Assembly: GCA_944380855.1 (NCBI GenBank)
Contig: CALWIW010000007.1
Span: forward strand, 1-63,507
Direction of reading: 5' to 3'
Length of the DNA: 63,507 nucleotides
From: an uncultured Clostridia bacterium
GTDB taxonomy: Bacteria; Bacillota; Clostridia; Oscillospirales; Acutalibacteraceae
The translations under genes and the position numbers were made by a program. A model generated the notes under the pieces. The model saw nothing but the letters and a program-made list of their open reading frames with translations. It did not search any database and was not told where the DNA came from. Positions 7,692 through 32,436 of this stretch are shown one piece after another. Position 1 is the stretch's first letter. Each line of letters starts with the position of its first letter.

Positions 7692-7923
7692 TGTATAGCA
7701 AATGTTGGGGCAAAAATTTTGGGATTCCAAAGGGACTACTGTCCCTTTGGCAGGCGGTTTGGAGGACGGCGTCCTCCAAGGTCTTAAAATACAGTAAAAA
7801 TGCAGGAGTGAGTAAAAAACAGTCCGGTGAACTGTTTTTTTGTCGTGAACCCACGTCTGTGTTCACGATAACTCTTTACTTTATCTCAATTTTACTTTTT
7901 ACACAACTATTGGCAAAGAACCG
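7692..7923 (+). repeat. Dispersed multi-palindrome repeat, copy A (full length)
   Basis: One of three copies (others at 11197-11319, inverted, and 32207-32436). Copies A and C align from a TGTAT left edge to a final CAAAGA-CC. Copy A holds four consecutive inverted repeats: P1 7727-7750 (10-bp arms CCAAAGGGAC), P2 7759-7779 (9-bp arms TTGGAGGAC), P3 7814-7840 (A-tract, short stem, T-tract, looking like a two-way terminator) and P4 7845-7866 (GTGAAC/GTTCAC). An open frame across it shares peptide-level similarity with one in copy C, but it has no SD and its codons simply follow the repeat. No transposase or clear terminal inverted repeat was seen. It could be a MITE-like element, a REP/BIME-like element or a structured RNA. 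Confidence 0.85.
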
Positions 7924-8152
7924 TTTTTAGTTTGTGTTTGTGATAATTTTAAATAAATTTATATCATTCTTTTTAGGAAACACAACAGACCCGCTCCGTG
8001 ATATAATCTATATAATTTCCGTCTTGGCAGTGGTTTTAATAACACAACATATTGTGACAAATTATTCGAATTGTACATTTTGTTGTGATTGCGGTTTGGG
8101 AAAATTTTAAAAACTACACAGTTTTGATTATTAAAAACCGTCAAATTTACCA

Positions 8153-8181
8153 TTGACTAAAACGGATATATGGGCTATACT
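8153..8181 (+). promoter_or_regulatory. Sigma-A type promoter for nrdDG
   Basis: TTGACT (8153-8158), a 17-bp spacer and TATACT (8176-8181). The transcript should begin near 8188, about 92 nt before nrdD. Confidence 0.7.
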
Positions 8182-8194
8182 TATCAAGCTGGCA

Positions 8195-8218
8195 TTTTAA
8201 CACTATATAGTGTTAAAA
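8195..8218 (+). promoter_or_regulatory. Perfect 24-bp palindrome, NrdR-box-like operator
   Basis: The site is a perfect palindrome whose core is ACACTATATAGTGT. It starts about 7 bp after the predicted nrdD transcription start, where bound repressor would block elongation or initiation. The half-sites resemble the NrdR box, but the classical box is about 16 bp and usually comes in pairs; this core is 2 bp shorter and no correctly spaced partner was found. In RNA it would also form a stem. Confidence 0.5.
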
Positions 8219-8279
8219 TATAGTAATATCACAAATTGTTGTAAGTCGTAATAGTACTTAATAGAAAGGAAGCGGAAAA

Positions 8280-10628
8280 ATGATAAAAAATATCATAAAA
8301 AGGGATGGCAGATCCGTTCCCTTCGATATAGAAAAGATATCGCAGGCTATTTACAAAGCAGCCCAGGCAATCGGCGGAAACGATTACGAGGCGGCAAAGG
8401 AGCTTGCTTTGCAGGTTTGCGATTATTTGGAAAACACAGAGCATCAGACAGAGCCAACTGTTGAACACGTTCAGGATACAGTAGAAAAGGTTCTTATTGA
8501 AAACGGTCACGCAAGAACGGCTAAAGAATACATTCTCTATCGTTCCGAAAGAACAAGAATAAGAGAAATGAACACCAAGCTTATGAAAATCTATGAGGAT
8601 TTGACATTTAAGCCTGCCGAGGATAACGATATTAAACGTGAAAACGCCAATATTGACGGCGATACGGCAATGGGTACAATGCTTAAATATGGCTCAGAAG
8701 GTGCAAAGCAGTTCTATGAGATGTATATTTTGAACCCGAAGCACGCAAAAGCTCACAGAAACGGCGATATACATATCCATGACCTTGATTTTCTTACACT
8801 TACTACCACTTGCTGTCAAATTGACTTATTAAAGCTTTTCAACGGTGGTTTCTGCACAGGACACGGTTATCTCCGTGAACCCAATGATATAGTTTCATAT
8901 TCTGCACTGGCTTGTATTGCTATTCAGTCAAACCAAAACGACCAGCACGGCGGTCAGAGTATTCCTAACTTTGATTATGGTATGGCAAAGGGCGTTGCAA
9001 AGACATACAGAAGAATTTACAGACAAAATCTTGCACGTGGAATAGAACTTCTTTGTGAAGATGATGACGCTGTAAATACCGGCAAGGAGATTTGCGACAA
9101 GGCAGAGGAAATCAGCGGACAGTGGCCAAAGCTTGAGGACGGCAAGGCGTATATGGACGAAGAGATTAAAATTCTCACAGAAAAATACGGCGAAAAACTT
9201 GCAGGAAAGCTTCAAAGATTTGCTTTCAGACACGCAGAAAAAGAGACAGACAGAGCCTGCTATCAGGCTATGGAAGCCCTTGTGCACAACCTCAACACCA
9301 TGCACAGCCGTGCAGGTGCACAGATTCCGTTCAGCTCATTGAATTACGGTACAGATACTTCTCCTGAGGGCAGAATGGTTATGAAAAATGTTTTGCTTGC
9401 TACCGAGGCCGGTCTTGGCAACGGGGAAACACCAATTTTCCCGATACATATTTTCAAGGTTAAAGAGGGAGTAAACTTTAATCCGGGAGATCCAAACTAC
9501 GATTTGTTTAAGCTGGCTTGCAGAGTTTCCGCAAAGCGTTTGTTCCCGAACTTCTCTTTCCTTGACGCACCATTCAACCTCCAGTATTACAAAGAGGGAC
9601 ATCCGGAAACCGAATGTGCATATATGGGCTGCCGAACAAGGGTTATTGCAAACCATTATGACCCAACAAGAGAGATTGTAAACGGCAGAGGAAATTTAAG
9701 CTTTACATCAATAAATCTTCCCAGACTTGCAATTCTTTCAAATAAGAACATAGACTTTTTCTTCGAGCAGCTTGACAGAATGATTGATTTGGTTATTGAA
9801 CAGCTTCTCGCAAGATTTGAAATCCAGTGTCAAAAGCTTGTAAAGAACTATCCTTTCCTTATGGGACAGGGAGTTTGGATAGACAGCGAAAAGCTCAATC
9901 CTAACGATTCAGTACGTGAGGTTTTAAAGCACGGAACACTTACCTGCGGATTTATAGGACTTGCCGAGTGTCTTAAAGCTCTTACAGGCAAGCATCACGG
10001 CGAAAGCATGGAGTCACAGCGTTTAGGTCTTGAGATTGTAGGATATATGAGAAAAAGAATGAATCAGGCTTGCGAAGAGTACAACCTCAATTTCTCTCTT
10101 ATCGCAACACCGGCTGAGGGACTTTCAGGCAGATTTGTAAGAATGGACAGAGAGCGTTTCGGTTCTATCCCCGGAGTTACTGACAGAGATTACTATACAA
10201 ACTCTTTCCATGTTCCTGTATATTACAATATTTCAGCCTTTGAGAAAATTAAAATAGAAGCACCGTATCATAACCTTACAAACGGCGGTCACATCTCATA
10301 TATAGAGCTTGACGGCGACCCGACGGAAAACCTTGAAGCATTCGAGCAGGTTATCAGATATATGAAAGAATGCGGTATAGGTTACGGTTCTGTTAACCAT
10401 CCGGTTGACCGTGACCCTGTTTGCGGACACACAGGTATTATCGGTGAAACTTGTCCTCATTGCGGCAGAAAAGAAGGCGACAGCGGTATAGGATTTGAGA
10501 GAATAAGAAGAATTACAGGTTACCTTGTAGGAACTGTAGACCGCTTTAACAATGCTAAAAAGGCAGAGGTTAATGACAGAGTAAAACATAGCTTGGGAAC
10601 CTGCGAATGTGCCGAGGAGATTGGCTGA
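8280..10628 (+). CDS. nrdD: Anaerobic (class III) ribonucleoside-triphosphate reductase
   Basis: Glycyl-radical enzyme that reduces ribonucleoside triphosphates to deoxynucleotides under anoxia; cytoplasmic and activated by NrdG. The 782-residue protein starts with an ATP-cone allosteric domain (~1-95), followed by the ten-strand glycyl radical barrel. Near the C-terminus is a Cys4-type zinc site (VCGH and CPHCG), and then the radical loop TGYLVGTVDRFNN with Gly751 as the likely radical residue. The ATG follows AAAGGAAG. The gene forms an operon with nrdG, whose SD lies inside the nrdD 3' end. Transcription probably starts at the promoter at 8153-8181 under control of the palindrome at 8195-8218. 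Full length; no anomalies seen. Confidence 0.96.
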   Translation: MIKNIIKRDGRSVPFDIEKISQAIYKAAQAIGGNDYEAAKELALQVCDYLENTEHQTEPTVEHVQDTVEKVLIENGHARTAKEYILYRSERTRIREMNTKLMKIYEDLTFKPAEDNDIKRENANIDGDTAMGTMLKYGSEGAKQFYEMYILNPKHAKAHRNGDIHIHDLDFLTLTTTCCQIDLLKLFNGGFCTGHGYLREPNDIVSYSALACIAIQSNQNDQHGGQSIPNFDYGMAKGVAKTYRRIYRQNLARGIELLCEDDDAVNTGKEICDKAEEISGQWPKLEDGKAYMDEEIKILTEKYGEKLAGKLQRFAFRHAEKETDRACYQAMEALVHNLNTMHSRAGAQIPFSSLNYGTDTSPEGRMVMKNVLLATEAGLGNGETPIFPIHIFKVKEGVNFNPGDPNYDLFKLACRVSAKRLFPNFSFLDAPFNLQYYKEGHPETECAYMGCRTRVIANHYDPTREIVNGRGNLSFTSINLPRLAILSNKNIDFFFEQLDRMIDLVIEQLLARFEIQCQKLVKNYPFLMGQGVWIDSEKLNPNDSVREVLKHGTLTCGFIGLAECLKALTGKHHGESMESQRLGLEIVGYMRKRMNQACEEYNLNFSLIATPAEGLSGRFVRMDRERFGSIPGVTDRDYYTNSFHVPVYYNISAFEKIKIEAPYHNLTNGGHISYIELDGDPTENLEAFEQVIRYMKECGIGYGSVNHPVDRDPVCGHTGIIGETCPHCGRKEGDSGIGFERIRRITGYLVGTVDRFNNAKKAEVNDRVKHSLGTCECAEEIG

Positions 10629-10630
10629 TT

Positions 10631-11158
10631 ATGAGTGACAAACAGCACACTTTAAGGCTTGCAGGAGTTATAAGAGAGTCAATAGTGGACGGTCCGGGAA
10701 TAAGAATGACAATTTTTGTTCAGGGCTGTCCCCATCACTGCAAGGGCTGTCACAATGCAAAGACATGGGATTTCGATGGCGGTTATGACGCACAGCCTGA
10801 AAGGCTTATTGAAGAGGCAAAAAAAGACCCTCTTCTAAAAGGCCTTACCTTTTCAGGCGGCGAGCCTTTCTGTCAGGCGGAAGCACTTTCTTATCTCGGT
10901 AAGCTTGCTCACGAAGCGGGTCTTGACGTTTTTACATATACAGGATATACCTTTGAAGAACTTTTAGAGGGGTCAAAGGAAAATACACAGTGGCTTAAGC
11001 TTTTAAATGAAAGCGACTATCTTGTGGACGGACCTTTCATTCTGGAACAAAAAAATATTTTGCTTCGTTTCAGAGGAAGCAAAAATCAGAGAATTCTGGA
11101 AGTTAAAAAATCCCTTGAAGAGGGAAGAGCGGTTATTTCTGAGGAATATAATAAATGA
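10631..11158 (+). CDS. nrdG: Anaerobic ribonucleotide reductase activating protein (radical SAM)
   Basis: Radical SAM activase that installs the glycyl radical on NrdD. The 175-residue protein has the CPHHCKGC motif (C-x3-C-x2-C) binding a 4Fe-4S cluster near residue 35, followed by a TFSGGEPF segment typical of SAM-binding activases. I place the start at ATG 10631, 2 nt after the nrdD stop, with SD GAGGAG at 10614-10619. An in-frame ATG at 10607 would add eight residues from within nrdD and has no SD. Co-transcribed with nrdD; followed by a terminator and the inverted repeat copy. Confidence 0.95.
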   Translation: MSDKQHTLRLAGVIRESIVDGPGIRMTIFVQGCPHHCKGCHNAKTWDFDGGYDAQPERLIEEAKKDPLLKGLTFSGGEPFCQAEALSYLGKLAHEAGLDVFTYTGYTFEELLEGSKENTQWLKLLNESDYLVDGPFILEQKNILLRFRGSKNQRILEVKKSLEEGRAVISEEYNK

Positions 11159-11166
11159 TATTTTTT

Positions 11167-11196
11167 AAAGGTCGAGTTTTATGCCCGGCCTTTTTT
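11167..11196 (+). terminator. Intrinsic terminator of nrdDG
   Basis: AAAGGTCG pairs with CGGCCTTT, with T6 to 11196. Repeat copy B (reverse orientation) starts at the next base, and the hairpin occupies the position that repeat palindrome P3 holds in copies A and C. Confidence 0.8.
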
Positions 11197-11319
11197 GTTC
11201 ACTCCTGTGTTTTTTTGCAGCATTTTAAGACCTTGTAGGACGCTGTCCTCCAAACCACCTGCCAAAGGGACGTGGTCCCTTTGGAATCCCCCGATTTTCC
11301 TAAAACATTTGATATACAG
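11197..11319 (-). repeat. Dispersed multi-palindrome repeat, copy B (shortened, inverted)
   Basis: Read on the minus strand it matches copies A and C from the TGTAT edge through P1, P2 and the CAGGAGTGA-AAAAAA segment, then stops at the nrdG terminator. P3 and P4 are absent. P1 keeps its 10-bp stem with a 3-nt loop. P2 has one arm mismatch (GTCCTACAA). The shared core of about 120 bp therefore defines the minimal element. Confidence 0.85.
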
Positions 11320-11381
11320 CCGGATTGATATTAATACTGCTTGACTGATGACAGCGGAAAAAAGCAATATGTAAAAAAGCC

Positions 11382-11410
11382 TTGACTTAACTATACTTTA
11401 AATGTAGAAT
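11382..11410 (+). promoter_or_regulatory. Promoter for the ATP-grasp gene
   Basis: TTGACT (11382-11387), 17-bp spacer, TAGAAT (11405-11410). The start site near 11417 would leave only a short leader before AGGGA and the TTG start. Confidence 0.65.
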
Positions 11411-11444
11411 AATACAGATATAAAAAATAAAGGGATTGAGAAAA

Positions 11445-12461
11445 TTGGCAGCGTCATATGTTTTAAGAATACTGAAAGGTGCAAGCTTTTCAAGAATGTC
11501 TAAGGTTATTGACAAGGTTAAGGAAAAAAGCGGTAAAAACAAGGTTTCTATCTTTTTTGATATGGTCAACTGTTCTATAAGATACGGTGCGGGATATTAT
11601 GATTATCTTCTTTCAGAGTATTATAATATGAATAGTGCAGAAAGAAAAACATATATGACCCGTGTTAAAAATAAAAATCTTATTATGAGCCTCAACGACC
11701 AAAACTTTTCCTATATTTTTGACCAGAAAAATGTCTTTGATGAAAAGTTCAAGGATTTTCTCGGCAGAGAGGTTTTGGATATTGCAAAAATTGATTTTGA
11801 AAGATTTAAAGAGTTTGTGAATGGAAAGGAAAGCTTTTTTGCAAAGCCGTATATAGGAGAAAGCGGAAAAGGTATTGAAAAACTCCATGTGGCTGACTTT
11901 AAAGCTGTTGAAGAGCTTTACAAGTATGTGACAAACAAAGAGAAAAACTTTGGAGTTATTGAAGAGGTAATAGTTCAGCACCCTGACGCCGCAAAAATTT
12001 ACCCGCCGTCACTGAACTGCCTGAGGATTGTTACCCTTGTAAAGGACAATGTTCCGCACATTGTTTATGCTGTATTCAAAACAGGAAACAACGGAAATGT
12101 GGTTGATAACCTTGAAAGCGGAGGACTTGCCGCAAAATTTGATATGGAAAAAGGCGAAATCTGCGGTCAGGGTCATATGTCATCAATGGAGAAATACGAC
12201 GTTCACCCTTATACCGGTATACCGTTTAAAGGTTATAAGCTTCCTTATCTTAAAGAAATAAAGGAAATGGTATTTAAGGCTGCTTTGGTTGTGCCGGAGA
12301 TTAAATATGTAGGCTGGGATGTCTGCATAACGGAAAACGGTCCTGCAATCATCGAGGGCAACGATTACCCCGGTTATGATTTTCCTCAGTATTATGATGA
12401 CGGAACACCGAGAGTCGGCCTTTTGAAAAGAATTCAGGAGATTTTACCTGATTTCAAATGA
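11445..12461 (+). CDS. ATP-grasp protein, sugar-transfer-associated type
   Basis: Predicted cytoplasmic ATP-grasp ligase, about 338 residues, of the kind often linked to polysaccharide or surface-glycan loci (ATPgrasp_ST-like). An FFAKPYIGESGKGI segment near residue 130 resembles the nucleotide-binding glycine loop. Near the C-terminus, WDVCITENGPAIIEGND matches the ATP-grasp metal-binding strand (E..N..P..IEgN). No ATG is available. TTG 11445 is 9 nt after AGGGA, while TTG 11436 touches the SD, so 11445 is preferred. The gene is monocistronic, with its own promoter and a terminator shared with the convergent peptidase gene. No glycosyltransferases lie nearby, so substrate and acceptor are unknown. 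Confidence 0.75.
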   Translation: MAASYVLRILKGASFSRMSKVIDKVKEKSGKNKVSIFFDMVNCSIRYGAGYYDYLLSEYYNMNSAERKTYMTRVKNKNLIMSLNDQNFSYIFDQKNVFDEKFKDFLGREVLDIAKIDFERFKEFVNGKESFFAKPYIGESGKGIEKLHVADFKAVEELYKYVTNKEKNFGVIEEVIVQHPDAAKIYPPSLNCLRIVTLVKDNVPHIVYAVFKTGNNGNVVDNLESGGLAAKFDMEKGEICGQGHMSSMEKYDVHPYTGIPFKGYKLPYLKEIKEMVFKAALVVPEIKYVGWDVCITENGPAIIEGNDYPGYDFPQYYDDGTPRVGLLKRIQEILPDFK

Positions 12462-12482
12462 TTTTTATCTCTTATAAATTAT

Positions 12483-12511
12483 GAGCGGATACTGCAAATC
12501 AGTACCCGCTC
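12483..12511. terminator. Two-way terminator between convergent genes
   Basis: A 12-bp stem with one mismatch (GAGCGGATACTG / CAGTACCCGCTC) lies between the ATP-grasp stop and the stop of the opposite-strand peptidase gene, with AT-rich flanks on both sides. Confidence 0.75.
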
Positions 12512-12538
12512 AATTTTATATGATTATTCCAATATTAC

Positions 12539-13390
12539 TCATTTGTTTCCTCGGGATTCAAATATGCTTTCAAACCTTTCTCTGTCATATTCCAAAAGAC
12601 CGGATATAGGGTCGGATATTGTTACAGTATCCTCTGAATATCCGATAAGCACAGCACCGTGGTCGTTGACGCTCCAGTCCACATATTCCCCCGATTCTGT
12701 ATACCAGCCGTTTACCTCTCCTCTGTATACCATGGAAACAGTAACCCATACAACTACAGGTGTATCTTCACTGACAAGCTGATAAAGCTCTTCAGGGGTT
12801 GAGCCTGTTATGTCTTTGGCACGCATGGAACTGCCCTGGTCTTCAAGGTAATCATCTGCGGCGGTCACTATAGCTCCCGTTCCGCATATGTAGCCGCCGG
12901 GAGTAAAGGGATCTCCCACAAAGTAATTGTTTAAGTCGGGTCCGTAAAGATTCCCGTCGCTGCCGTAATAAAAATATGATGAAGCGATTGGAAGATATTC
13001 GGAAGCCATGGTGATTTTATCTGCGGAAAATCCGTAATAATTTAACACCATTGTCAAAGCGGTTATCTCACAGCCTGTGGGAAGCTCCGGCAATTGGCCG
13101 ACAATGTTGAAGTCACTTATAACATGGGAATTATTGCTTTCTGTTGTTTCTTCTGTAATTGCATTATTAAAGGAGTCATTGTTGTCTGTATTTTCTTGAT
13201 TGTATAAATCAGTCGGAACACTTTCGGTTTCACCGCTGTTAAAAGATGTACTGCTGTCAGTATTGTCTGTGTTTTTATCTCCGAAAAACACGAAATAATT
13301 GAAAATTAACATACTGTCGATAATTACAAACAGAAACGAAAGGGTTTTGATATTTTGTAAACGCCTGAGACGGCGGCGGTTTTCTCTCAT
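12539..13390 (-). CDS. Membrane-anchored C39-like cysteine peptidase
   Basis: Predicted papain-fold peptidase of the Peptidase_C39_2 type, 283 residues, exposed outside the cell. It has a basic N-terminus (RENRRRLRRLQ), one transmembrane segment at ~17-36 and an Asn/Ser/Thr-rich linker to ~90. The catalytic domain has Cys107 in LPTGCEITAL, His244 in NDHGAVLIGY and Asp260 in ISDPISG, a complete triad. The ATG has GAGGTG upstream. The gene is alone on the minus strand, convergent with the ATP-grasp gene and divergent from secG. Family members process cell-wall peptides or secreted proteins; the target here is unknown. Confidence 0.82.
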   Translation of the reverse strand: MRENRRRLRRLQNIKTLSFLFVIIDSMLIFNYFVFFGDKNTDNTDSSTSFNSGETESVPTDLYNQENTDNNDSFNNAITEETTESNNSHVISDFNIVGQLPELPTGCEITALTMVLNYYGFSADKITMASEYLPIASSYFYYGSDGNLYGPDLNNYFVGDPFTPGGYICGTGAIVTAADDYLEDQGSSMRAKDITGSTPEELYQLVSEDTPVVVWVTVSMVYRGEVNGWYTESGEYVDWSVNDHGAVLIGYSEDTVTISDPISGLLEYDRERFESIFESRGNK

Positions 13391-13692
13391 TCAGTTACAC
13401 CTCGCTAACATTATTTATATACACGTATTTAAACAATAGATTTTGTTAATAAAGATACATATTATTTTAATAAAAATCACCTTACAAAGTTTAAAGATAG
13501 CTTGATTATAATATACAATATCTATAATATAAAATGCAAGAGAAATTTATCGCTTAATGGGAAAAACAATAAAAATAGTACTTGAATTTGTTTTTGATAT
13601 ATGGTAAAATACAACGTATGAATGTTAAAGTATGCTTTGTTTGTTCATAGAACGACAGCAAAGTATAATTTGAATTGAAAGGACGAAAATAA
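13391..13692. other. Divergent intergenic region, C39 peptidase / secG
   Basis: About 300 bases of AT-rich sequence with no gene. It contains the secG promoter (13582-13610) and, in the secG leader, a 9-bp inverted repeat (13631-13639 with 13659-13667, one G-U pair) about 14 nt from the predicted start site. No clear promoter for the minus-strand peptidase was identified. Confidence 0.55.
13582..13610 (+). promoter_or_regulatory. secG promoter
   Basis: TTGAAT (13582-13587), 17-bp spacer, TAAAAT (13605-13610); start site near 13617. Confidence 0.65.
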
Positions 13693-13941
13693 ATGTCAGG
13701 TTTGGAAATTGCTTTCGGAGCCATCCTTATAGTTTTTGCGATTATTATGATTATCGTAATAATTCTTCAGGAAGGCAACCAGCAGGGTATCGGCGTTGTT
13801 ACAGGCGGTGCTGATTCTTTCTTCTCAAAGAATAAGGCTCGTTCAATAGACGCTTTCCTTTCACGCTGGACAAAGATTATTGCAATCGGCTTTGTTGTTT
13901 TTGTTGTTGCACTTAACGTATTTATGTTCTTTGCAAAATAA
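13693..13941 (+). CDS. secG: Preprotein translocase subunit SecG
   Basis: Small accessory subunit of the SecYEG channel in the cytoplasmic membrane. It has 82 residues with two transmembrane helices (~5-25 and ~58-79) joined by a Gly-rich loop containing the family-typical QEGNQQGIGVVTGGADSFF segment and a Lys/Arg-rich cytosolic turn. It starts at ATG after GAAAGGACG. It is transcribed from its own promoter and closed by a strong terminator, so it is effectively a single-gene unit here. Confidence 0.95.
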   Translation: MSGLEIAFGAILIVFAIIMIIVIILQEGNQQGIGVVTGGADSFFSKNKARSIDAFLSRWTKIIAIGFVVFVVALNVFMFFAK

Positions 13942-13964
13942 TTACAAGGTATTATTGCCGTAAG

Positions 13965-14016
13965 AAAAGCATAAAATTAACCGTCGGATATCCGGCGGTT
14001 AATTTTATGCTTTTTT
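13965..14016. terminator. Long-stem terminator after secG
   Basis: Nearly perfect inverted repeat of about 24 bp per arm (AAAAGCATAAAATTAACCG with its complement) around an ATA loop, with T-tracts readable on both strands. Unusually long for a simple terminator. Confidence 0.9.
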
Positions 14017-14031
14017 AATGGAGGAGAGTAT

Positions 14032-14295
14032 ATGAATACGGCTGTTGTAGTTATGATTTTGCTTTGCACAGTGGTTGCTTTTGGTATTGCCAATGCTCTG
14101 AGCGGAAAAAGAAAGCCTTTGAAAACAGGTTTTTTATATGTGTTTTTGGGAATAATTTCTTTAATAGCCGTTAATGCTTCTTCAGCTTATACCGGTATAA
14201 ATGTTCCTATAAGCTGTTATTCGATTTTGGTGTCCGGAATAGGAGGAATTCCGGGAACTGTGCTGCTTTCTGTTTTGCAGTTTGTTATCGTATAA
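14032..14295 (+). CDS. BofA-like small membrane protein
   Basis: The 87-residue membrane protein has two to three hydrophobic segments. Its C-terminal half (NVPISCYSILVSGIGGIPG, then a hydrophobic tail) matches the conserved region of pro-sigma-K processing inhibitor BofA, which in Bacillus holds the SpoIVFB protease inactive in the outer forespore membrane. SD is GGAGGAGAG, and ATG 14032 follows the secG terminator directly. The assignment rests on the short C-terminal motif and size. Other sporulation genes in the window agree with it, but sigma-K control in this organism is not shown. Confidence 0.65.
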   Translation: MNTAVVVMILLCTVVAFGIANALSGKRKPLKTGFLYVFLGIISLIAVNASSAYTGINVPISCYSILVSGIGGIPGTVLLSVLQFVIV

Positions 14296-14316
14296 GCTGT
14301 AAAAGTATCGAAAAGA

Positions 14317-14925: not shown

Positions 14926-15003
14926 ATATATCACCTCATAACCTGTATACTATTGTAATTATATCATATATTTTTTGTTTTTGGTAGGCTATTTTTAAAT
15001 TAC

Positions 15004-25190: not shown

Positions 25191-25219
25191 TTGCTTTTTA
25201 ATTTTGTATATGGTAAAAT
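25191..25219 (+). promoter_or_regulatory. Promoter for the MATE transporter gene
   Basis: TTGCTT (25191-25196), 17-bp spacer, TAAAAT (25214-25219). Divergent from the sortase-operon promoter, with fewer than 100 bp between them. Confidence 0.6.
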
Positions 25220-25266
25220 CCAAAAGAAGTTTTTAAAAAAATAAAACGTAGTTTAATGGTGGTATT

Positions 25267-26580
25267 ATGAAGAAAAGTGTTTTGGGGGAGTTTATAAAAT
25301 ATGTATCTATGAATATTGCCGGAATGATAGGCTTATCCTGCTACATTCTGGCTGATACTTTTTTTATTTCACAAGGTATCGGCTCAGACGGTCTTACAGC
25401 ACTTAATATTGCTTTGCCGGCATTCAATATTATGAACGGTGCAGGACTGATGATAGGTATGGGCGGTGCGGCAAGATTTTCTATTTTAAAAGCTTCCGGA
25501 GATGAAAAAAAGGCAAACAGCGTCTTTTCCTCTTGTGTGTATTTTGCCGCTGTTATTTCCGTAATTTTGATTATCTGCGGATTGTTTCTTTCTTGGGATA
25601 TATCAAGGCTTTTGGGTGCAAAGGGAGAAATACTGCCTATGACCCAAGTGTATTTGCGGGTTATGCTGCTTTTTTCTCCGCTTTTTATGTTTAACAATCT
25701 TATTATTTGTTTTGTTCGCAATGACGGTGCTCCGAATCTTGCAATGGCTGGAATGATTGTGGGAAGCCTCGGAAATATAATTATGGATTACGTGTTTATT
25801 TTTCCTTTAAAAATGGGAATGTTCGGTGCTATTGCGGCTACTGCTATGGCTCCGGGAATAAGTTTGCTGCTTATGGCAGTCAGAGGTTTGAAAGGTAAAA
25901 ATTCTTTTTCTTTTATAAAAACGAGCATTTCTTTCAAAGCTTGGTTTGATGTATCTTCTCTCGGGATTTCGTCATTCATTACAGAAGTTTCTTCCGGAAT
26001 TGTAATATTGATTTTTAACTTTATAATTTTGGATATTATGGGAAATATCGGTGTGGCGGCATACGGAATTGTAGCCAATATCGCATTGGTCGTTACCGCA
26101 ATTTTTACCGGAATTTCTCAGGGAATGCAGCCTTTGGTAAGCAGAAGCAAAGGAGAGGGAAACATTGCTGCAAGTGAGAAAATTTACAGGTACGGAATTA
26201 TTACGGGTGTTTTTGCGGCATTGCTGATTTACTGTATTGTGTTTTTATTTACAGACAATATAACAGGTGCATTTAACCCTGAAGGCATAAAAGAACTGCA
26301 AGTGTCGGCAGGAGAAGGACTAAGGCTTTATTTTCCTGGATTCATATTCGCTGCGGTAAATATTATAACCTCGGTTTTCTTTGGGGCATGGGATAAACCT
26401 GCACAGTCTTTTATTATTTCCGCGTTGAGAGGTTTTGCTGTTATTATACCTTCGGCATTTATAATGGCGTCGCTTTTCGGCATGGTTGGTGTTTGGCTTG
26501 CTTTTCCTCTGTGCGAGCTGTTGGTTTCCGTTATATCGGTATTAATAAAGGTAAAACAAAAGAGATTGACGGTGCAGTAA
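25267..26580 (+). CDS. MATE family efflux transporter
   Basis: Cation-coupled multidrug or metabolite exporter with twelve predicted membrane helices, 437 residues. The N-half contains the family region ALNIALPAFNIMNGAGLMIGMGGAARFSI and the C-half a matching GISQGMQPLVS segment, reflecting the two-fold MATE repeat. It resembles the MepA/DinF branch by gene length and motif. ATG 25267 follows a weak SD (GGTGG). Single-gene unit with its own promoter and a terminator shared with the convergent degV gene. Substrate cannot be predicted. Confidence 0.9.
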   Translation: MKKSVLGEFIKYVSMNIAGMIGLSCYILADTFFISQGIGSDGLTALNIALPAFNIMNGAGLMIGMGGAARFSILKASGDEKKANSVFSSCVYFAAVISVILIICGLFLSWDISRLLGAKGEILPMTQVYLRVMLLFSPLFMFNNLIICFVRNDGAPNLAMAGMIVGSLGNIIMDYVFIFPLKMGMFGAIAATAMAPGISLLLMAVRGLKGKNSFSFIKTSISFKAWFDVSSLGISSFITEVSSGIVILIFNFIILDIMGNIGVAAYGIVANIALVVTAIFTGISQGMQPLVSRSKGEGNIAASEKIYRYGIITGVFAALLIYCIVFLFTDNITGAFNPEGIKELQVSAGEGLRLYFPGFIFAAVNIITSVFFGAWDKPAQSFIISALRGFAVIIPSAFIMASLFGMVGVWLAFPLCELLVSVISVLIKVKQKRLTVQ

Positions 26581-26601
26581 CATTTCAAATAAATACATAT
26601 A

Positions 26602-26652
26602 TAAAAGGTATGTGCGTTGGGATATAAAATATCCGTTTGCACATACCTTTAT
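26602..26652. terminator. Two-way terminator between MATE and degV genes
   Basis: A 12-bp outer stem (AAAGGTATGTGC with GCACATACCTTT) with a nested GGATAT/ATATCC hairpin inside; A and T tracts on the two sides suit both strands. Confidence 0.85.
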
Positions 26653-26659
26653 TTTTTAC

Positions 26660-27529
26660 TTATTTATAATTTCTTTTACCTAAGAATGTTAACGCCAGCA
26701 TTCCGGCACCTACGTGAGCACCTATAACTGGTCCGATGTTCACAATTATGGCTTTGCCTACAAGAGGCTCTACCATTCGCTGAAGCTTCTGAGCCGCTTC
26801 AAGGTTATCGGCGTGTCCGATAAACACAGTCTGAGTTTCAAGATCTTCTCCGTCGCGAACCAATCTGTCAACAAGATTGTCAAACACTTTAAGGTAACCG
26901 CGGATTTTTGCGACGGTTATTAAGTGGCCCTCATCGTCTACACTGAGAAGAGGCTTGATTTGTAGTGCCTTGCCGAAAGTAGCGGTAAGGGAAGAAATTC
27001 TTCCGCCTCTTTTAAGGTGTTCCAAATCATCAACCACAAACCAGTGTCCAATCCTATTCTTTGTTTCTTCTGCGTATTTATATACCTCTTCGATTGTACC
27101 GCCCTGCTTGGCTTTCTGAGCTACATGGTAAACAAGATTGCCTTCACCAAGACTTGCACAGGCACTGTCCAAAACGAGAATTTTTCTTTCAGGATATTTC
27201 TCCAGTAAGTCGGATACGGCAATCATACAGGTGTTGTATGTACCGCTGAGTCCTGATGTAAAGCAGATATAAAGAATATCCTTGCCTTCTTTCAGGAACG
27301 GTTCAAAAGACTTATTAAATGTGTTAATGTTGATTTGGGAAGTGGTGGGCATTGCTCCGTTTCTGACTTCTTTATAGAAATCCTCTATGGACATTTCACG
27401 GCAGTCGGGATAATGCTTGTAAACCTTATCGCCTATGGTGAATTCCATTGGCAAAACTTCAACGCCAAGTGTTTTTACCAAATCTGCATTTAAGTCGCAT
27501 ACAGCGTCTGTTACCAATACAAAACTCAT
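26660..27529 (-). CDS. DegV family fatty-acid-binding protein (FakB-like)
   Basis: Soluble DegV-fold lipid-binding protein, 289 residues. In Firmicutes such proteins (FakB) carry a fatty acid for phosphorylation by FakA. It has the N-terminal VLVTDAVCDL strand, the MPTTSQININTF loop contacting the carboxylate, TSGLSGTYNT, and a C-terminal GPVIGAHVGAGMLALTF segment typical of the family. I start at ATG 27529 with GGAGGGATTCT upstream; an earlier in-frame start at 27562 has no SD. A FakA-like gene is present at 40736-42400, so a functional pairing is plausible, though one genome usually has several DegV genes. Confidence 0.9.
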   Translation of the reverse strand: MSFVLVTDAVCDLNADLVKTLGVEVLPMEFTIGDKVYKHYPDCREMSIEDFYKEVRNGAMPTTSQININTFNKSFEPFLKEGKDILYICFTSGLSGTYNTCMIAVSDLLEKYPERKILVLDSACASLGEGNLVYHVAQKAKQGGTIEEVYKYAEETKNRIGHWFVVDDLEHLKRGGRISSLTATFGKALQIKPLLSVDDEGHLITVAKIRGYLKVFDNLVDRLVRDGEDLETQTVFIGHADNLEAAQKLQRMVEPLVGKAIIVNIGPVIGAHVGAGMLALTFLGKRNYK

Positions 27530-27655
27530 TAAGAATCCCTCCGAATCCTTTAAATTTTCCAATACATTTTCCGAATAACAGTTATTTTGTTCTTTCTTAA
27601 TCCTTAACCGAGAGTGCCTGTATTTTAGTCATAAATACAGAATACTTTCATATAA

Positions 27656-27684
27656 ATTTTAACAAATAACGCTATATATGTCAA
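27656..27684 (-). promoter_or_regulatory. degV promoter
   Basis: On the minus strand: perfect TTGACA (27679-27684), 17-bp spacer, TAAAAT (27656-27661). A small leader hairpin (CTGTATTT/AAATACAG) lies at 27621-27643. Confidence 0.72.
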
Positions 27685-27748
27685 GGCAGAGTGCGGTTTA
27701 ACAGAAAAAGTGTTTTTGTATATTTTAAAATATTTGAGGTGATACTTT

Positions 27749-28045
27749 ATGACTTGCAGAGTTGCTCAGTTAAGACACAAGGAGGTTATAAACAGTGTTA
27801 CAGGATGCAGGATTGGAACTGTTGACGATGTTGAGGTTGATACGGCGTCTGCAAAGGTTTTGGCTATAGTGATTTACGGAAGAGGACGTTTTTGGGGCTT
27901 TTGGGGAAAATGCGAGGATTATATAATCTCATGGGACAACATAATTCTGATAGGTGAGGACACTATTTTGGTAAAAGAGTGTATCAGAAGATCCTCCTCA
28001 AAAGGCTCAAAAAGCGGTTTTTTCGGCAGTTTTTTTAAAAAATAA
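27749..28045 (+). CDS. YlmC/YmxH family PRC-barrel sporulation protein
   Basis: The 98-residue protein is a single PRC-barrel domain (RHKEVINSVTGCRIGTVDDVEVD through IISWDNIILIGEDTILV) followed by a Ser/Lys/Phe-rich tail. This is the layout of the YlmC/YmxH family, which occurs in spore-formers; its molecular role is not established. ATG 27749 follows TTGAGGTGA. Single gene between the divergent degV gene and the SleB-like hydrolase. The function label comes from family membership only. Confidence 0.8.
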   Translation: MTCRVAQLRHKEVINSVTGCRIGTVDDVEVDTASAKVLAIVIYGRGRFWGFWGKCEDYIISWDNIILIGEDTILVKECIRRSSSKGSKSGFFGSFFKK

Positions 28046-28351
28046 AGAAAAAATTAAAATTTGTAACCAATGTATCCTATTTTCTAAATCTCATTTTAAG
28101 ATATTAGGAATTTTTAACATAATTCGTAACCAAAAAGTTACTTTAAATTACAAAATTGTAACTTTTAAAAGCTTAAAAAGTTGCCGTTTACAGGCGGGGG
28201 GCTTGCATTTTTTTTTCAAATGTGCTTTAATACCTAAGGAAATTTGAAGAAGACATATAAATACCGCTTGTTTAAGGTACATATACAAAAATTACATTAT
28301 TGTAACAATTGTAAAACCATTTTTGGGAATGTGCTTATAAGGAGGAAAAAT
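28046..28351 (+). other. Long leader/intergenic region before the SleB-like hydrolase
   Basis: About 300 bases without a gene. Contains four scattered GTAAC(A/C) elements (near 28065, 28125, 28158 and 28292), an inverted repeat AAAAGTTAC/GTAACTTTT (28133-28141 with 28158-28166), a G7-containing patch (GGCGGGGGGC, ~28193-28202), a promoter at 28203-28231, and a ~115-nt leader before the SD. I looked for c-di-AMP riboswitch landmarks and did not find them. Confidence 0.5.
28203..28231 (+). promoter_or_regulatory. Promoter for the SleB-like hydrolase
   Basis: TTGCAT (28203-28208), 17-bp spacer beginning with T8, TTTAAT (28226-28231). Confidence 0.55.
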
Positions 28352-29149
28352 ATGAATAAATCAAAGTTTACATTGAAGGTTTTGACAGCAGGAGTTTTAG
28401 CTGCGGCTGTTCTGTGCGTGCCGGTTGCAGGAGCGAATTTTAATGCTTTTGCTATGGGCGGTAAAACAGGAACTTTAAATATGACAGCTATTGAAAGCCA
28501 GCCCCTTTTATCTCAGGCACTTTCTGCTGACAGCTATACAGATTCAGAACAGCAGGCAATGGAAAGAGCTTTGGCAGTTGATAAGGCAAAGACAGAAGCT
28601 CAGCAGTCTGTTCAGGAAGTAAAAGAAAAGCAAGAGGCAGAAGCTATCGCAGCCTCAAGTTATACTCAGACCAGCAGCTATTCTTCATCCGGATTCGGAA
28701 GTTCCGCCTCTCAGACAGTTATAGGCGATGCAACAAGCACAGGATATCTGCTTTCGATCGATAATCCGGATCCAAACTATGTAAGCAGAAGCGTTTCACT
28801 TTCTGCTGAGGACAGATATATACTTGAAAGACTTGTAATGGGAGAGTCCGGAAACCAAGGTTTCATCGGTGCGGCTCTTGTTGCTCAGACTATCAGAGAT
28901 ACACTTGTTTATGACGGTTACAGTTCTGTAGAGTCAGTAAGAGTGAACTGCGGATACTACGGCAGCTTGGATATAGCACCAAATCAGGACGTGCTTGACG
29001 CTGTGTCCTATATTTTTGACCAGGGCGGTGCAGCGGTTCAGCATCAGTTGAGATATTTTTACGCTTACAAAATTTGTTCAAGTCCATGGCACGAAAGCCA
29101 AAACCATGTTGTAACTTATCTTGATGTTAAGTTCTTTGACCGTTGGTAA
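28352..29149 (+). CDS. Secreted SleB-like cell wall hydrolase
   Basis: A 265-residue exported protein with a signal peptide (~1-35), a linker rich in Glu/Gln/Ala/Ser (~60-125, coiled-coil then low-complexity) and a C-terminal hydrolase domain (~150-265) of the SleB/Hydrolase_2 type. Features are ERLVMGESGNQGFIGAALVA with the likely catalytic Glu in MGES, and later HESQNHVVTYLDVKFF. Such enzymes cleave peptidoglycan as lytic transglycosylases. ATG 28352 follows AAGGAGG; an in-frame start at 28244 has no SD and would destroy the signal peptide. Monocistronic, with its own promoter and terminator. Whether it acts in spores or growing cells is unknown. Confidence 0.82.
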   Translation: MNKSKFTLKVLTAGVLAAAVLCVPVAGANFNAFAMGGKTGTLNMTAIESQPLLSQALSADSYTDSEQQAMERALAVDKAKTEAQQSVQEVKEKQEAEAIAASSYTQTSSYSSSGFGSSASQTVIGDATSTGYLLSIDNPDPNYVSRSVSLSAEDRYILERLVMGESGNQGFIGAALVAQTIRDTLVYDGYSSVESVRVNCGYYGSLDIAPNQDVLDAVSYIFDQGGAAVQHQLRYFYAYKICSSPWHESQNHVVTYLDVKFFDRW

Positions 29150-29160
29150 TCGAATACAGA

Positions 29161-29196
29161 TGAGTCGTTTGAAAAAATTCAAACGGCTCATTTTTT
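29161..29196 (+). terminator. Terminator after the SleB-like gene
   Basis: A 13-bp stem (TGAGTCGTTTGAA with TTCAAACGGCTCA), A4 loop, T6 tail. Confidence 0.92.
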
Positions 29197-29198
29197 GT

Positions 29199-29227
29199 TT
29201 GAAACCTTGTGAATTTTATGGTAAAAT
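29199..29227 (+). promoter_or_regulatory. Promoter for the lipoprotein gene
   Basis: TTGAAA (29199-29204), 17-bp spacer, TAAAAT (29222-29227), starting right at the end of the previous terminator's T-tract. Confidence 0.6.
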
Positions 29228-29296
29228 CAATATGTATCTGTTTAAATTATAAAACATCAGATAAAATTCAAACTATATTGGACAGGAGATTTATTT

Positions 29297-29794
29297 ATGA
29301 AGTTTGGAAAATTAATGACAAAAATAATTTGTTCCGCCATTTGCCTGTTTCTTGTCGTTGTTTCAGGAGGCTGTTCATCTGATAACAACAACGAAAGTCA
29401 AACGACAGAGCCGGTTACTCTGAACGGAGAAACAGAGGACGTAGACCCGTCAACAGTTGCGGCACTTAGAATTTACGATTCAACAGCGGAAAATCTTCTC
29501 TATACAGCTACATGGGCTGACACTGATGTTACAGACGCTTTTCAGAAGCTTGTTGACAATTACACAGGCGTTCCGGGTGAGAGAACAGACGCCGGGGATT
29601 TTGTTGTGGAATATGTAGGTTATGACGCTTACTCTACAAGATGGTATGATTTATGGCTTGAGGAGGACGGCTCAATTCAGTTTGCACAAAATAAAATTAA
29701 ATCAATGAGCTTTGACGGTTCAGGCGTCAGACAGTCGGGAGCTATGACAGTCGATGAATTTTGTGAGCTGACAGGATTATCGCCGGTTGAATAA
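29297..29794 (+). CDS. Uncharacterised lipoprotein
   Basis: A 165-residue exported protein with a basic N-terminus, hydrophobic core and lipobox VSGGC (Cys at residue 26), so it should be lipidated and held on the outer face of the membrane. A short Asn/Thr/Glu-rich linker precedes a compact ~110-residue mixed domain (VAALRIYDSTAENLLYTATW to the end) with many Asp/Tyr/Trp residues. No family recognised. SD GACAGGAG, with its own promoter. The next gene (VOC protein) follows 23 nt later and is probably co-transcribed. Function unknown. Confidence 0.78.
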   Translation: MKFGKLMTKIICSAICLFLVVVSGGCSSDNNNESQTTEPVTLNGETEDVDPSTVAALRIYDSTAENLLYTATWADTDVTDAFQKLVDNYTGVPGERTDAGDFVVEYVGYDAYSTRWYDLWLEEDGSIQFAQNKIKSMSFDGSGVRQSGAMTVDEFCELTGLSPVE

Positions 29795-29817
29795 CCAAAA
29801 CGAAAAGAGGTAACAGT

Positions 29818-30186
29818 ATGAAATTCAAAATGATTCATGAAAACTACAATGTGGCAGACCTTGAAAAATCAAAAGCTTTTTATAAAGAGGCATTGGGTTT
29901 GGAAGAAAAAAGCAGAATTACCGCAGACGACGGTTCTTTTATAATCATTTATCTTGGAAATGATGAAAGCAGCTTTTTGCTTGAGCTTACATGGCTTAGG
30001 GATATGGACAGGCCATACAATCTCGGTGACTGCGAGTTCCACTTGGCTTTTGAAACAGATGATATGGAAAAATCTCACAGCCTCCACGAAAAGATGGGCT
30101 GTATCTGTTTTGAGAACCCTGCAATGGGAATTTATTTTATCAAAGACCCTGACGGCTACTGGCTTGAGATAGTTCCGGCTAAATAA
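29818..30186 (+). CDS. VOC superfamily protein, glyoxalase I-like
   Basis: A 122-residue cytoplasmic protein of the vicinal-oxygen-chelate fold with two beta-alpha-beta-beta-beta modules. The N-terminal NYNVADLEKSKAFYKEALGL and C-terminal FIKDPDGYWLEIVPAK are standard glyoxalase I/lactoylglutathione lyase signatures. Likely metal ligands include His-8 region, Glu near LLELTW, His in FHLAFE and Glu in WLEIVP. Probably detoxifies methylglyoxal-type adducts, but VOC proteins vary widely in substrate. SD is AAAGAGG. Co-directional with the lipoprotein gene and closed by a terminator. Confidence 0.85.
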   Translation: MKFKMIHENYNVADLEKSKAFYKEALGLEEKSRITADDGSFIIIYLGNDESSFLLELTWLRDMDRPYNLGDCEFHLAFETDDMEKSHSLHEKMGCICFENPAMGIYFIKDPDGYWLEIVPAK

Positions 30187-30199
30187 AATATCTTTTATA

Positions 30200-30232
30200 A
30201 ATCGGCTGTACCGACGGTATAGCCGATTTTTT
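30200..30232 (+). terminator. Terminator after the VOC gene
   Basis: AATCGGCT pairs with AGCCGATT, an inner GTACC-type loop, and T6. Confidence 0.85.
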
Positions 30233-30253
30233 CTGAAAAAATCAAAAAAATCC

Positions 30254-30282
30254 TTGATTTTTTAATCGGGCTGTGATAAAAT
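30254..30282 (+). promoter_or_regulatory. rpsB-tsf promoter
   Basis: TTGATT (30254-30259), 17-bp spacer, TAAAAT (30277-30282); start site near 30289. Confidence 0.7.
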
Positions 30283-30288
30283 ACTAAG

Positions 30289-30389
30289 GCAAAACGCACG
30301 CTGCAATATGCCGCTGAGGTGATTTGAAAGAATTTCGGGGCGGTAAATTCCGGTTTGCAGCGGAGGTTTAACCTAAGGAGGAAATAATA
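30289..30389 (+). ncRNA. Structured rpsB leader, candidate S2 autoregulatory RNA
   Basis: About 100-nt leader. An 8-bp closing stem CGCTGCAA/TTGCAGCG (30299-30306 with 30355-30362) encloses a second helix CCGC/GCGG (30311-30314 with 30340-30343) and a purine-rich loop. A short AGGTT/AACCT hairpin follows just before the SD (AAGGAGG). Ribosomal protein operons are often autoregulated by such leaders; I cannot match this one to a named family. Confidence 0.55.
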
Positions 30390-31133
30390 ATGGCAGTAGT
30401 ATCAATGAAACAGCTTTTGGAAGCAGGCGTACATTTCGGACATCAGACAAGAAGATGGAACCCTAAGATGGCAGAATACATCTTCACAGAGCGTAACGGA
30501 ATTTACATCATCGACCTTCAGAAGACAGTAAAGAAGCTTGACGAGGCTTACAACTTTGTTCGTGACCTTTCAACAGAGGGCAAGACAGTTCTCTTCGTAG
30601 GTACAAAGAAGCAGGCTCAGGAGTCTGTTAAGGAAGAAGCAGAGCGTGCAGGTGCTTACTATGTAAACGCGAGATGGCTCGGCGGAATGCTCACAAACTT
30701 CACAACAATCAAGAGAAGAATCGCAAGACTTAAGCAGCTCCGTGCTATGGAAGCTGACGGCACATTCGATCTCCTTCCAAAGAAGGAAGTTATCAAGCTT
30801 AATCTTGAGATTGAGAAGCTTGAGAAGTTCATGGGCGGTATTAAGGATATGCCTGGCGTTCCTGGATGTCTTTTCATCGTCGACCCAAGAAAAGAGAAGA
30901 TTGCTGTTTCAGAAGCAAAGAAGCTTGGTATCCCTGTTGTTGCTATCGTAGACACAAACTGCGATCCTGACGACGTTGATTATGTAATCCCGGGCAACGA
31001 CGACGCTATCCGTGCTGTTAAGCTTATCGCAGGTGCTATGGCAAGTGCTATCATCGAAGGCAGAGAGGGTGCAATGGGTGCCGCTGCTGCTGAGGCTGAA
31101 GCAGAGGAAGCTGAAGAAGCAACAGAGGAATAA
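30390..31133 (+). CDS. rpsB: 30S ribosomal protein S2
   Basis: Small-subunit protein S2, 247 residues. The hallmark N-terminus [22 protein letters not shown], then [17 protein letters not shown] and [30 protein letters not shown] are all conserved. An Ala/Glu-rich C-terminal tail follows. SD AAGGAGG, ATG 30390. Operon with tsf 70 nt downstream, the near-universal bacterial arrangement. Regulation is probably through the structured leader. Confidence 0.98.
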
Positions 31134-31203
31134 TTATCTGTCCCTTTAAATTTGATTAAACGTAAAAGAGATATAAATACTTTATCTGAAAGGATTGATT
31201 ATA

Positions 31204-32112
31204 ATGGCATTTACAGCTCAGGACGTAAAGGCATTGAGAGAAAAGACAGGCTGCGGTATGATGGACTGCAAAAAGGCTTTAACACAGGCTAACGGCGATA
31301 TGGACGCAGCTATCGACTTTTTGAGAGAGCAGGGTCTTGCAAAGCAGGCTAAGAAAGCAAGCAGAGTTGCTGCTGAGGGTATGGCTTTTGCTACAACAAA
31401 CGAGACAAACGACCTCGGCGTTGTTGTTGAAGTAAATGCTGAGACAGACTTCGTTGCTAAGAACGAGGAGTTCCAGGCATTCGTTAAGACTTGTGCAGCT
31501 ACAGTTATGGAGAAAAATCCTGCTGATGTTGAGGCTCTTCTTGCTGAAACAGCAGTTGGTTCTGATAAAACAATCGGCGAGCTTCTCCAGGAGAAGGTTC
31601 TCGTTATCGGCGAAAACATCAAGGTAAGAAGATTTGAAAGAGTTGAAGGACCTTGCGTTGCTTATGTTCATGCCGGCGGTAAAATCGGTGTTATCGTAAC
31701 ATTCGAGACAGATTTGGCTTCTAAGCCTGAATTTGTTGCATACGGAAGAGATTTGGCTATGCAGATTGCCGCTCTCAGCACAGCATATCTCCGCAGAGAA
31801 GATGTTCCTGCCGAGGTTTTGGAGCATGAGAAGAAGATCATGACAGAGCAGGTTATCAACGAGGGTAAGCCTGCAAATATTGCTGAGAAAATCGTTATGG
31901 GTAAAATCGGCAAGTATTATAAGGAGAACTGCCTCCTTGAGCAGGAGTTTGTTAAGGACAACAAGCAGAATATCCAGCAGTATACAGACGCTACAGCTAA
32001 GGCTCTCGGCGGTTCCATTAAGGTAACAGGCTTTATCCGTTATGAGAAGGGCGAAGGCATTGAGAAGCGTCAGGACGATTTCGCAGCAGAAGTTGCAAGC
32101 ATGGTAAAATAA
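31204..32112 (+). CDS. tsf: Elongation factor Ts
   Basis: Nucleotide exchange factor for EF-Tu, 302 residues. It has the N-terminal UBA-like domain (AQDVKALREKTGCGMMDCKKAL), the TDFVAKNEEF motif that contacts EF-Tu, and two core subdomains ending with a C-terminal module. The start is ATG 31204 after GAAAGGA; an upstream TTG at 31195 lies next to the SD and is not used. Last gene of the rpsB-tsf operon, ended by a terminator, after which repeat copy C begins. Confidence 0.97.
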   Translation: MAFTAQDVKALREKTGCGMMDCKKALTQANGDMDAAIDFLREQGLAKQAKKASRVAAEGMAFATTNETNDLGVVVEVNAETDFVAKNEEFQAFVKTCAATVMEKNPADVEALLAETAVGSDKTIGELLQEKVLVIGENIKVRRFERVEGPCVAYVHAGGKIGVIVTFETDLASKPEFVAYGRDLAMQIAALSTAYLRREDVPAEVLEHEKKIMTEQVINEGKPANIAEKIVMGKIGKYYKENCLLEQEFVKDNKQNIQQYTDATAKALGGSIKVTGFIRYEKGEGIEKRQDDFAAEVASMVK

Positions 32113-32148
32113 TTTTAGATTTGAAATTATTTGAATAAATCTAATTAT

Positions 32149-32187
32149 AAAGGCAAAGCTCATGTATCAATGTGCTTTGCCTTTTTG
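32149..32187 (+). terminator. Terminator of rpsB-tsf
   Basis: An 11-bp stem AAAGGCAAAGC with GCTTTGCCTTT, followed by T-rich sequence. Confidence 0.92.
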
Positions 32188-32206
32188 TTTTCTTAAAATA
32201 AAGGGT

Positions 32207-32436
32207 TGTATGGTAAATGTTTGGGAAAATTTGGGGATTCCAAAGGGACATTGGTCCCTTTGGCAGGTGGTTTGGAGGACAGCGTCCTCCAAGGTCTTAA
32301 AATTCAGCAAAAAAACGCAGGAGTGAGCAAAAAACAGTCCGGTGAACTGTTTTTTGCTGTGAACCCACGTCAGTGTTCCCCTCTAACTTTTTATTTTTTG
32401 TAAATTCACTTTATGACCAACTTTTGACAAAGAGCC
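32207..32436 (+). repeat. Dispersed multi-palindrome repeat, copy C (full length)
   Basis: Same orientation and layout as copy A. P1 and P2 arms are identical to copy A while the P1 loop differs (ATTG versus TACT). P3 is identical in its stem. P4 has decayed (GTGAAC...GTTCCC). It starts about 20 bp past the tsf terminator and runs to near the LysR-gene terminator. The open frame across it has no SD and is repeat-derived. Confidence 0.85.

Follow-up and report, generated by a model that had tools for sequence, protein, structure and literature searches.

The window, i.e., the whole stretch of 63,507 nucleotides analysed here, contains three copies of a dispersed repeat family whose members are non-coding and approximately 235 bp long. 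Copy 1 (7690-7922, plus strand, 233 bp) is whole. Aligned to the family consensus, it has the ends GG...CC and comprises, all on the plus strand, a 5' terminal inverted repeat (7690-7711), hairpin P1 with the loop TACT (7727-7750), hairpin P2 with the loop GGC (7759-7779), the A-tract/T-tract hairpin P3 (7814-7840, fold z -1.75), hairpin P4 with the arms CGTGAAC/GTTCACG (7844-7867), and a 3' terminal inverted repeat of ISL3 type (7901-7922). Its left target duplication, gtttttta (7682-7689, plus strand), overlaps the T-tract of a terminator-like site and is identical at six of eight positions to gtttttag on the right side (7923-7930). Copy 3 (32204-32436, plus strand) is likewise whole and 233 bp long by alignment to the family consensus. 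It is flanked by the duplication aaataaag (32196-32203, plus strand), with the same eight bases at 32437-32444, and carries on the plus strand P1 with the loop ATTG (32240-32263), P2 with the loop AGC (32272-32292), P3 with 13 pairs (32326-32358) and P4 as an imperfect hairpin, GTGAAC/GTTCCC (32359-32380). Copy 2 (11191-11321, minus strand) is a 5' fragment matching positions 1-130 of the 235-nt query; it consists of P1 with the loop CAC (11262-11284) and P2 with one broken pair (11233-11253), both on the minus strand.

Direct reading recovers the P1 arms CCAAAGGGAC/GTCCCTTTGG and the P2 arms TTGGAGGAC/GTCCTCCAA in all three copies. The first-pass annotation had described four palindromes in a fixed order in each of them. 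For P1 and P2 this is correct, as are the three P1 loops it gave, whereas P3, P4 and the 3' end are confined to copies 1 and 3. Its treatment of P1 to P4 as a single unit has to be given up, since copy 2 is without P3 and P4 and since P1-P2 also exists as a module of its own well beyond the repeat. In copies 1 and 3, the fold of the P1-P2 part surpasses that of all 200 shuffled sequences; in copy 2 it is weaker (z -1.47; 15 of 200 shuffles are equally good). Open reading frames of at least 80 amino acids are absent from the interior of the whole copies 1 and 3. Some further features of the window were recorded along the way. An outward-facing TTGACA lies in the 3' terminal repeat of 21 of 33 copies, including copy 3 (32424-32429), with TTGGCA in its place in copy 1; such a motif could provide flanking DNA with a -35 box. 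An ordinary ribosomal protein L10 leader is located at 49403-49557 (plus strand; RF00557, 60.3 bits).

Throughout the 1.9-Mb genome to which the window belongs (G000, 86% complete), the covariance model R1 finds at least 78 matches to the P1-P2 core among the best 93 of 951 candidates scored, as expected from the earlier proposal that three copies in the window imply many in the genome. A BLAST search with the 235-nt query yields at least 47 matches, short pieces included (best 40 of 113 candidates scored). The P1 pattern occurs 44 times without mismatch, 27 and 17 times on the two strands, and never when read backwards, so the matches are not due to chance. Two sets of copies were used. From the 78 core matches, 75 were examined, and the 33 with both ends recognisable, which span 177-239 bp, entered the test for target duplications. 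A search with the right half of the repeat was chosen so that copies are not selected by P1-P2; it gave 40 places (from the best 40 of 58 scored candidates, besides three rows that are short pieces). A contig end truncates two of these (C15, C29), P1 is lost from one (C4:30501), and 37 have an R1 match. The overlap of both sets comprises 29 copies.

The shell of the repeat has the anatomy of a MITE. Its terminal inverted repeats are imperfect and 22 bp long, and the 8-bp flanks of the 33 copies agree to 76.9%, compared with 40.6% expected from shuffled sides and a maximum of 50% in 500 shuffles. Perfect 8-bp duplications flank 10 of the 33 copies (0.4 expected). Duplication lengths of 4-7 and 9-12 do not exceed the shuffles, the value for length 7 (48.9%) being equal to its highest shuffle. 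The 3' end of the family has the consensus ACCCCAACTATTGACAAAGAGCC, with the complement GGYTCTTTGTCAATAGTTGGGG. In G078, a genome of the same order, GGYTCTTTGTCAATAGTTGGGG follows directly on a 400-aa ISL3 transposase frame (Pfam PF01610, PF14690, PF13542) and is identical over the 21 positions searched. The MITE 3' end is also identical, over 21 searched positions, to the end of an ISL3 remnant in G030, which is of the same family, and three ISL3 remnants in G021 carry it with one mismatch. The other end was not found on the G078 contig, nor was a MITE-type end seen at the long ISL3 locus of the relative G017. The 5' end of the MITE shares only 16 of 22 positions with the ISL3 end. ISCg1, an ISL3 element of Corynebacterium, has an 8-bp target that is A/T-rich at its centre (PMC8715038).

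With ISL3 insertion sequences (PF01610) and the MITEs derived from them, the window family thus shares terminal repeats starting with GG, the GGYTCTTTGTCAATAGTTGGGG end and an AT-rich 8-bp duplication. Unlike the insertion sequences, it has no coding capacity, a diverged 5' end and the hairpins P1-P4, and it resides in an assembly without a detected transposase. ISL3 transposase genes were found neither in G000 nor in G001, a genome of the same genus; four of the 60 genomes searched, our own included, have a PF01610 match. Of the transposase with matching ends that the first-pass annotation had advised looking for, one with a matching 3' end lies in the same-order genome, and none was found in the host itself. 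The annotation had also taken ends identical to those of a known IS or MITE as evidence against its claim of a new family, and the ISL3-type ends come close to such identity. What stands is a new MITE family, whose ISL3-type inverted repeats and 8-bp duplications do not support the view of a wholly new kind of element. In comparison with G001, the interval matching copy 2 is without the MITE but holds other sequence, so that it is no clean empty site; for copies 1 and 3, the flanking sequences do not lie together in that genome. By its anatomy the family is an ISL3-type MITE, a non-coding element of 235 bp with duplications of 8 bp of AT-rich target, and it would be mobilised in trans by an ISL3-family transposase.

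The MITE copies are located mostly 3' of genes and often at intrinsic terminators. An intrinsic terminator adjoins 22 of 40 copies, compared with 15.7% of 12,042 random intergenic points and 19.4% of 3,121 AT-rich ones. The 34 copies with both neighbouring genes known (ORF-based) lie between convergent genes in 14 cases and between tandem genes in 20 (12 and 8 by orientation), and never between divergent ones; 5 of the 36 gaps of at least 60 bp in the window are divergent. With tandem cases at only 12 to 8, the MITE has no orientation bias to its neighbour genes. The right-hand gene does point at the MITE in 30 of 38 cases, but this goes with the absence of divergent pairs and was not taken as a separate signal. 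Like an intrinsic terminator, the MITE has a stem, P3, between an A- and a T-tract, and many copies adjoin terminators. In contrast to terminators, P1 and P2 are without a T-tract. P3 was considered as a classical terminator and rejected, since the terminator scan made no call.

At some sites in G000 and G001 the P1-P2 module occurs without recognisable terminal repeats. A gene start follows P1 at a distance of 71-93 nt in 8 of the 19 copies listed from both genomes. Orthologous module sites precede proA (proteins 94% identical) and a Na+/H+-exchanger-type antiporter (95%). At the proA site, P2 differs between the two species by three paired changes, as judged by eye. The antiporter site of G000 is a chimera in which the 5' half of the MITE is joined to a non-MITE P2 side, and hence both kinds of copies seem to recombine. 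A third common site, before a pseudouridine synthase in G001, was judged by eye from upstream similarity, the G000 contig ending there. Several other features accompany the non-MITE copies. Tandem P1-arm/P2 units adjoin such copies at G000:C11:23484-23544 (minus strand, L265) and G000:C2:103549 (L006), and one array of this kind stands at a contig end of G000. Some copies are preceded by a further intergenic repeat resembling CGGCAGGCG...ATTGGAAT...CCTGTATGTGAGCA (L003, G001:C34:135935, C4:49313; by eye). A fluoride riboswitch lies near the antiporter copy in G001 (L034 1608-1681, minus strand; RF01734, 48.9 bits).

In the 29 MITE copies, divergence from the consensus amounts to 0.9% in the P1 stems and 0.2% in the P2 stems, compared with 3.1% in P3 and 11.6% outside the core and P3. 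The terminal repeats are approximately 12% divergent, and the P1 loop reaches 17.6%. With the P1 loop excluded, the core is 2.3% divergent and lies below the rest in 29 of 29 copies. The P1 and P2 stems thus diverge 13 to 60 times less in sequence than the remainder of the MITE. Copies are approximately 18% apart outside the core, which means that there has been enough time for decay. The low divergence of the stems indicates that their fold is maintained, or at any rate their sequence, whether through selection or because copies homogenise one another. In our genome, the complete copies show no two-sided paired change in the P1 and P2 stems. What is kept within the MITE is thus the stem sequence, and it is other genomes and the non-MITE copies that speak for pairing.

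Homogenisation in the form of gene conversion among copies would account for the slow core without any function. The antiporter chimera speaks for it, and so does the observation that P1 loop and linker variants are independent of backbone similarity (p 0.37 and 0.41), a comparison of little power, since distances between copies with the same label and with different labels are nearly equal (0.18). Conversion should not, however, spare the P1 loop, at 17.6% divergence, while holding the two arms that adjoin it, and we regard this explanation as unlikely.

Bacterial hairpin repeats are usually regarded as species- or genus-level families. The pattern GGATTCCAAAGGG-N(2-20)-CCCTTTGGCNGG finds at least 115 stretches in named genomes, and the matches listed include Oscillospiraceae, Ruminococcus, Selenomonadaceae, Desulfovibrio and relatives, Methylobacterium, Lentisphaerae, Myxococcales, Chloroflexi and Nitrospirota. 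The carrier phyla are Bacillota, Pseudomonadota, Thermodesulfobacteriota, Nitrospirota and others; part of this signal in other phyla depends on a search pattern and a model biased towards the present P1. Seven of 80 records are not MAGs, namely five of Methylobacterium, Fundidesulfovibrio agrisoli and one Pseudoalteromonas. The last, at 34.5 bits, is likely a chance match. With isolate records among the carriers, mis-binning alone does not account for the spread. In a viral collection the P1 pattern had no match. Among the 60 genomes, our own included, R1 identifies six carriers at E below 0.001, with 78 matches in G000, 10 in G001, 90 in G025, 2 in G020 and one each in G036 and G073 (best 93 candidates scored in each). 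Twelve genomes reached via the named loci have 7 to 146 matches each, weak ones included (best 150 candidates scored in each); copy-by-copy reading covered Fundidesulfovibrio among these twelve.

The 80 named loci contain 82 module matches, of which, owing to end effects, 79, 74 and 72 were used for the counts given here. Within 45 nt after P1, a hairpin with a 3-nt loop and at least six Watson-Crick pairs is found in 60 of 74 cases, compared with 10 of 74 upstream of P1 and 30 of 740 random windows; when loops of three to five are allowed, 72 of 79 have a hairpin after P1. The P2 loop is AGC, AGA, GGA or GGC in 51 of 60. By a crude ORF call, 29 of the 82 matches lie in a frame of at least 100 amino acids and 53 outside, so that the label 'intergenic' is insecure for the named loci. 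Where both neighbours are known, these are convergent in 14 cases, tandem in 11 and 7, and divergent in 8. A candidate closing helix, GGGATT:AATC(C), was not accepted as a general three-way junction: of 72 cases, 30 have AATC downstream (13.4 shuffled), yet 20 have it upstream as well, and for AATCC the count is 8 (4.3 shuffled). In L118, L124, L136, L147, L150, L154 and L161, an extra hairpin, GTGAGTTTG-loop-CAAACTCA, is located in the P2 region as if inserted into P2.

Covariation was assessed in two alignments. For A1, 60 of the 82 matches were kept, after removal of 20 without a canonical 3-nt-loop P2 and two duplicate or long-loop rows. Its 66 rows comprise 58 from named loci, three from the window and five non-MITE copies, L127 and L154 being left out because of an odd P2. 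Pairing is found in 98.3% of the A1 cells, compared with 87.1% when shuffled and at most 61% when slid, and 140 cells show two-sided changes (43 shuffled). Of five covariation measures, two stay within the range of the shuffles, namely the number of pairs changed on both sides (8 versus 7.1) and that of further pair types (20 versus 21.8). The P2 rows were chosen partly for pairing, whereas two inner pairs of P1 were not. One of them is A-U in 41 rows, C-G in 14, U-A in 7, G-C in 3 and other in 1; the second is C-G in 36, U-A in 13, A-U in 7, G-C in 2, U-G in 2 and other in 6.

In F. agrisoli, 29 of the best 30 loci were read. Most have the form GGGATT/GGGAGT/AGGATT-P1-CGGG-P2, a GCCGCCGGAGGC-like tag ends most of them, and GCGAAGC precedes many; 46 of the 90 matches listed for Fundidesulfovibrio reach at least 40 bits. 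The tag CCGGAGGC alone was found 43 times with enough flank in 80 kb around the F. agrisoli hits. Chance tags included, 25 of these have two hairpins of at least six pairs, 15 have one and three have none. Alignment A2 consists of 27 of the 43 (25 distinct), picked for the two-hairpin layout, and is not independent of the model, as its copies lie around R1 hits. In its P1 helix, 98.8% of the cells are paired, with 35 two-sided changes (11.6 shuffled) and six pairs that show such a change (3.9 shuffled); further pair types, 10 versus 9.4, are not above the shuffles. The linkers of the module are GGGATT and CRGG in A1, and mostly GGGATT/GGGAGT/AGGATT and CGGG in A2. The genome-wide search, the covariance model and the test for compensatory changes that the first-pass annotation had asked for thus yield a dispersed family with covarying stems. 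Its statement that the stems are kept is borne out, both by their far lower divergence than loop and flanks and by their covariation across species.

The module resembles the REP/BIME/REPIN repeats in its short palindromes, high copy number, patchy distribution and some inverted doublets, and one may ask whether P1-P2 is simply one of the known REP/REPIN repeats, with a RAYT tyrosine transposase to move it. Inverted doublets occur in Methylobacterium and Fundidesulfovibrio, with examples at L141 (759-814 plus, 820-871 minus), L100 (5476-5530 plus, 5532-5583 minus) and G099 C2 (126708-126773 plus, 126776-126838 minus). The carrier G001 moreover has one intact-looking gene for the tyrosine transposase Y1_Tnp (PF01797). 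GTAG and CGTC tags are the mark of the two REP super-families (PMC3733652), and neither tag was found unpaired at the module end in the flanks of A1 or A2. Y1_Tnp is absent from G000, present only as frames with stops in G025, and encoded by one gene in G022, which has no module match. The six genomes tested show no RAYT association: at the five Y1 loci, R1 gave only an 18-nt partial match (L252, 10.7 bits, E 0.12). The module further differs from REP/BIME/REPIN in its linked hairpin pair with GGGATT and CRGG linkers and in having one grammar across phyla. Membership in the known REP families is thus quite unlikely, while the REPIN-like doublets suggest that the module may work like a REP without belonging to these families. 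By eye, G025 copies at L216, L220, L223, L226, L229, L232, L235 and L237 are each paired with a neighbouring inverted array that has A/T hairpins (AAAAGTTTTTTGTCCAC...), a REPIN-like layout in which the spacer varies. Inversion of the P1 loop was considered and found not convincing: among 19 distinct loops, 6 have their reverse complement present, whereas shuffles give 2.3 on average and up to 9. A literature search by sequence strings and topics found no description of such a repeat among the matches listed. A study of stem-loop families in bacterial genomes (PMC2267715) may include relatives of the P1-P2 repeat.

A cis-acting RNA family of the host, such as a 5' leader, a terminator or a stability element, could have been duplicated without a transposon. 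The covariation of the stems and the gene starts 71-93 nt after P1, which include the proA and antiporter ortholog pairs, would fit this view. It is at odds with the 8-bp target duplications and ISL3 ends of the window family and with the missing orientation bias to genes (tandem 12 to 8 for the MITE, 11 to 7 for the named loci). In Rfam 15, searched with the window and with ten loci, the latter at a relaxed threshold, P1-P2 is also without a match at gathering score; an IsrM match near P1-P2 in L034 is far below threshold (16.9 bits versus 376). We therefore consider a host RNA family very improbable. Quasipalindrome template switching, a mutational process without selection which would likewise produce paired changes in both arms, deserves as little credence, as it predicts perfect pairing at ordinary divergence whereas the stems are 13 to 60 times less divergent, and as P2 loops mostly hold one polarity (51 of 60).

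We consider it likely that an ISL3-type MITE carrying an independent, old, REP-like hairpin pair, GGGATT-P1-CRGG-P2, explains the observations as a whole. The MITE probably captured the pair from a module copy of the host. What is recognised in the module is probably a single strand of one polarity in its folded form, as suggested by the covariation of the stems between species and by P2 loops that are mostly AGC, AGA, GGA or GGC and not their complements. By analogy with REP/REPIN, its most likely role would be that of a single-stranded hairpin target for a putative enzyme, a reading we hold with some reserve. More tentatively still, the module may belong to a phylum-spanning family of modular hairpin arrays, spread by a putative enzyme that reads hairpins in single-stranded DNA and travelling here as cargo in an ISL3 MITE. 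Such arrays would consist of one near-perfect hairpin or two, free to vary in sequence as long as pairing and loop are kept, between fixed end tags, which in Fundidesulfovibrio are GCGAAGC (left) and GCCGCCGGAGGC (right). Among the roles considered for the module, an RNA role in processing, stability or termination ranks second and appears doubtful. Within a single genome, the MITE provides some tens of natural replicates for measuring how strongly the stems are constrained relative to a backbone under less constraint. If a repeat keeps one grammar in several phyla, has covarying stems and lacks a known mobilising enzyme, it would offer studies of mobility or RNA function a new and testable target.
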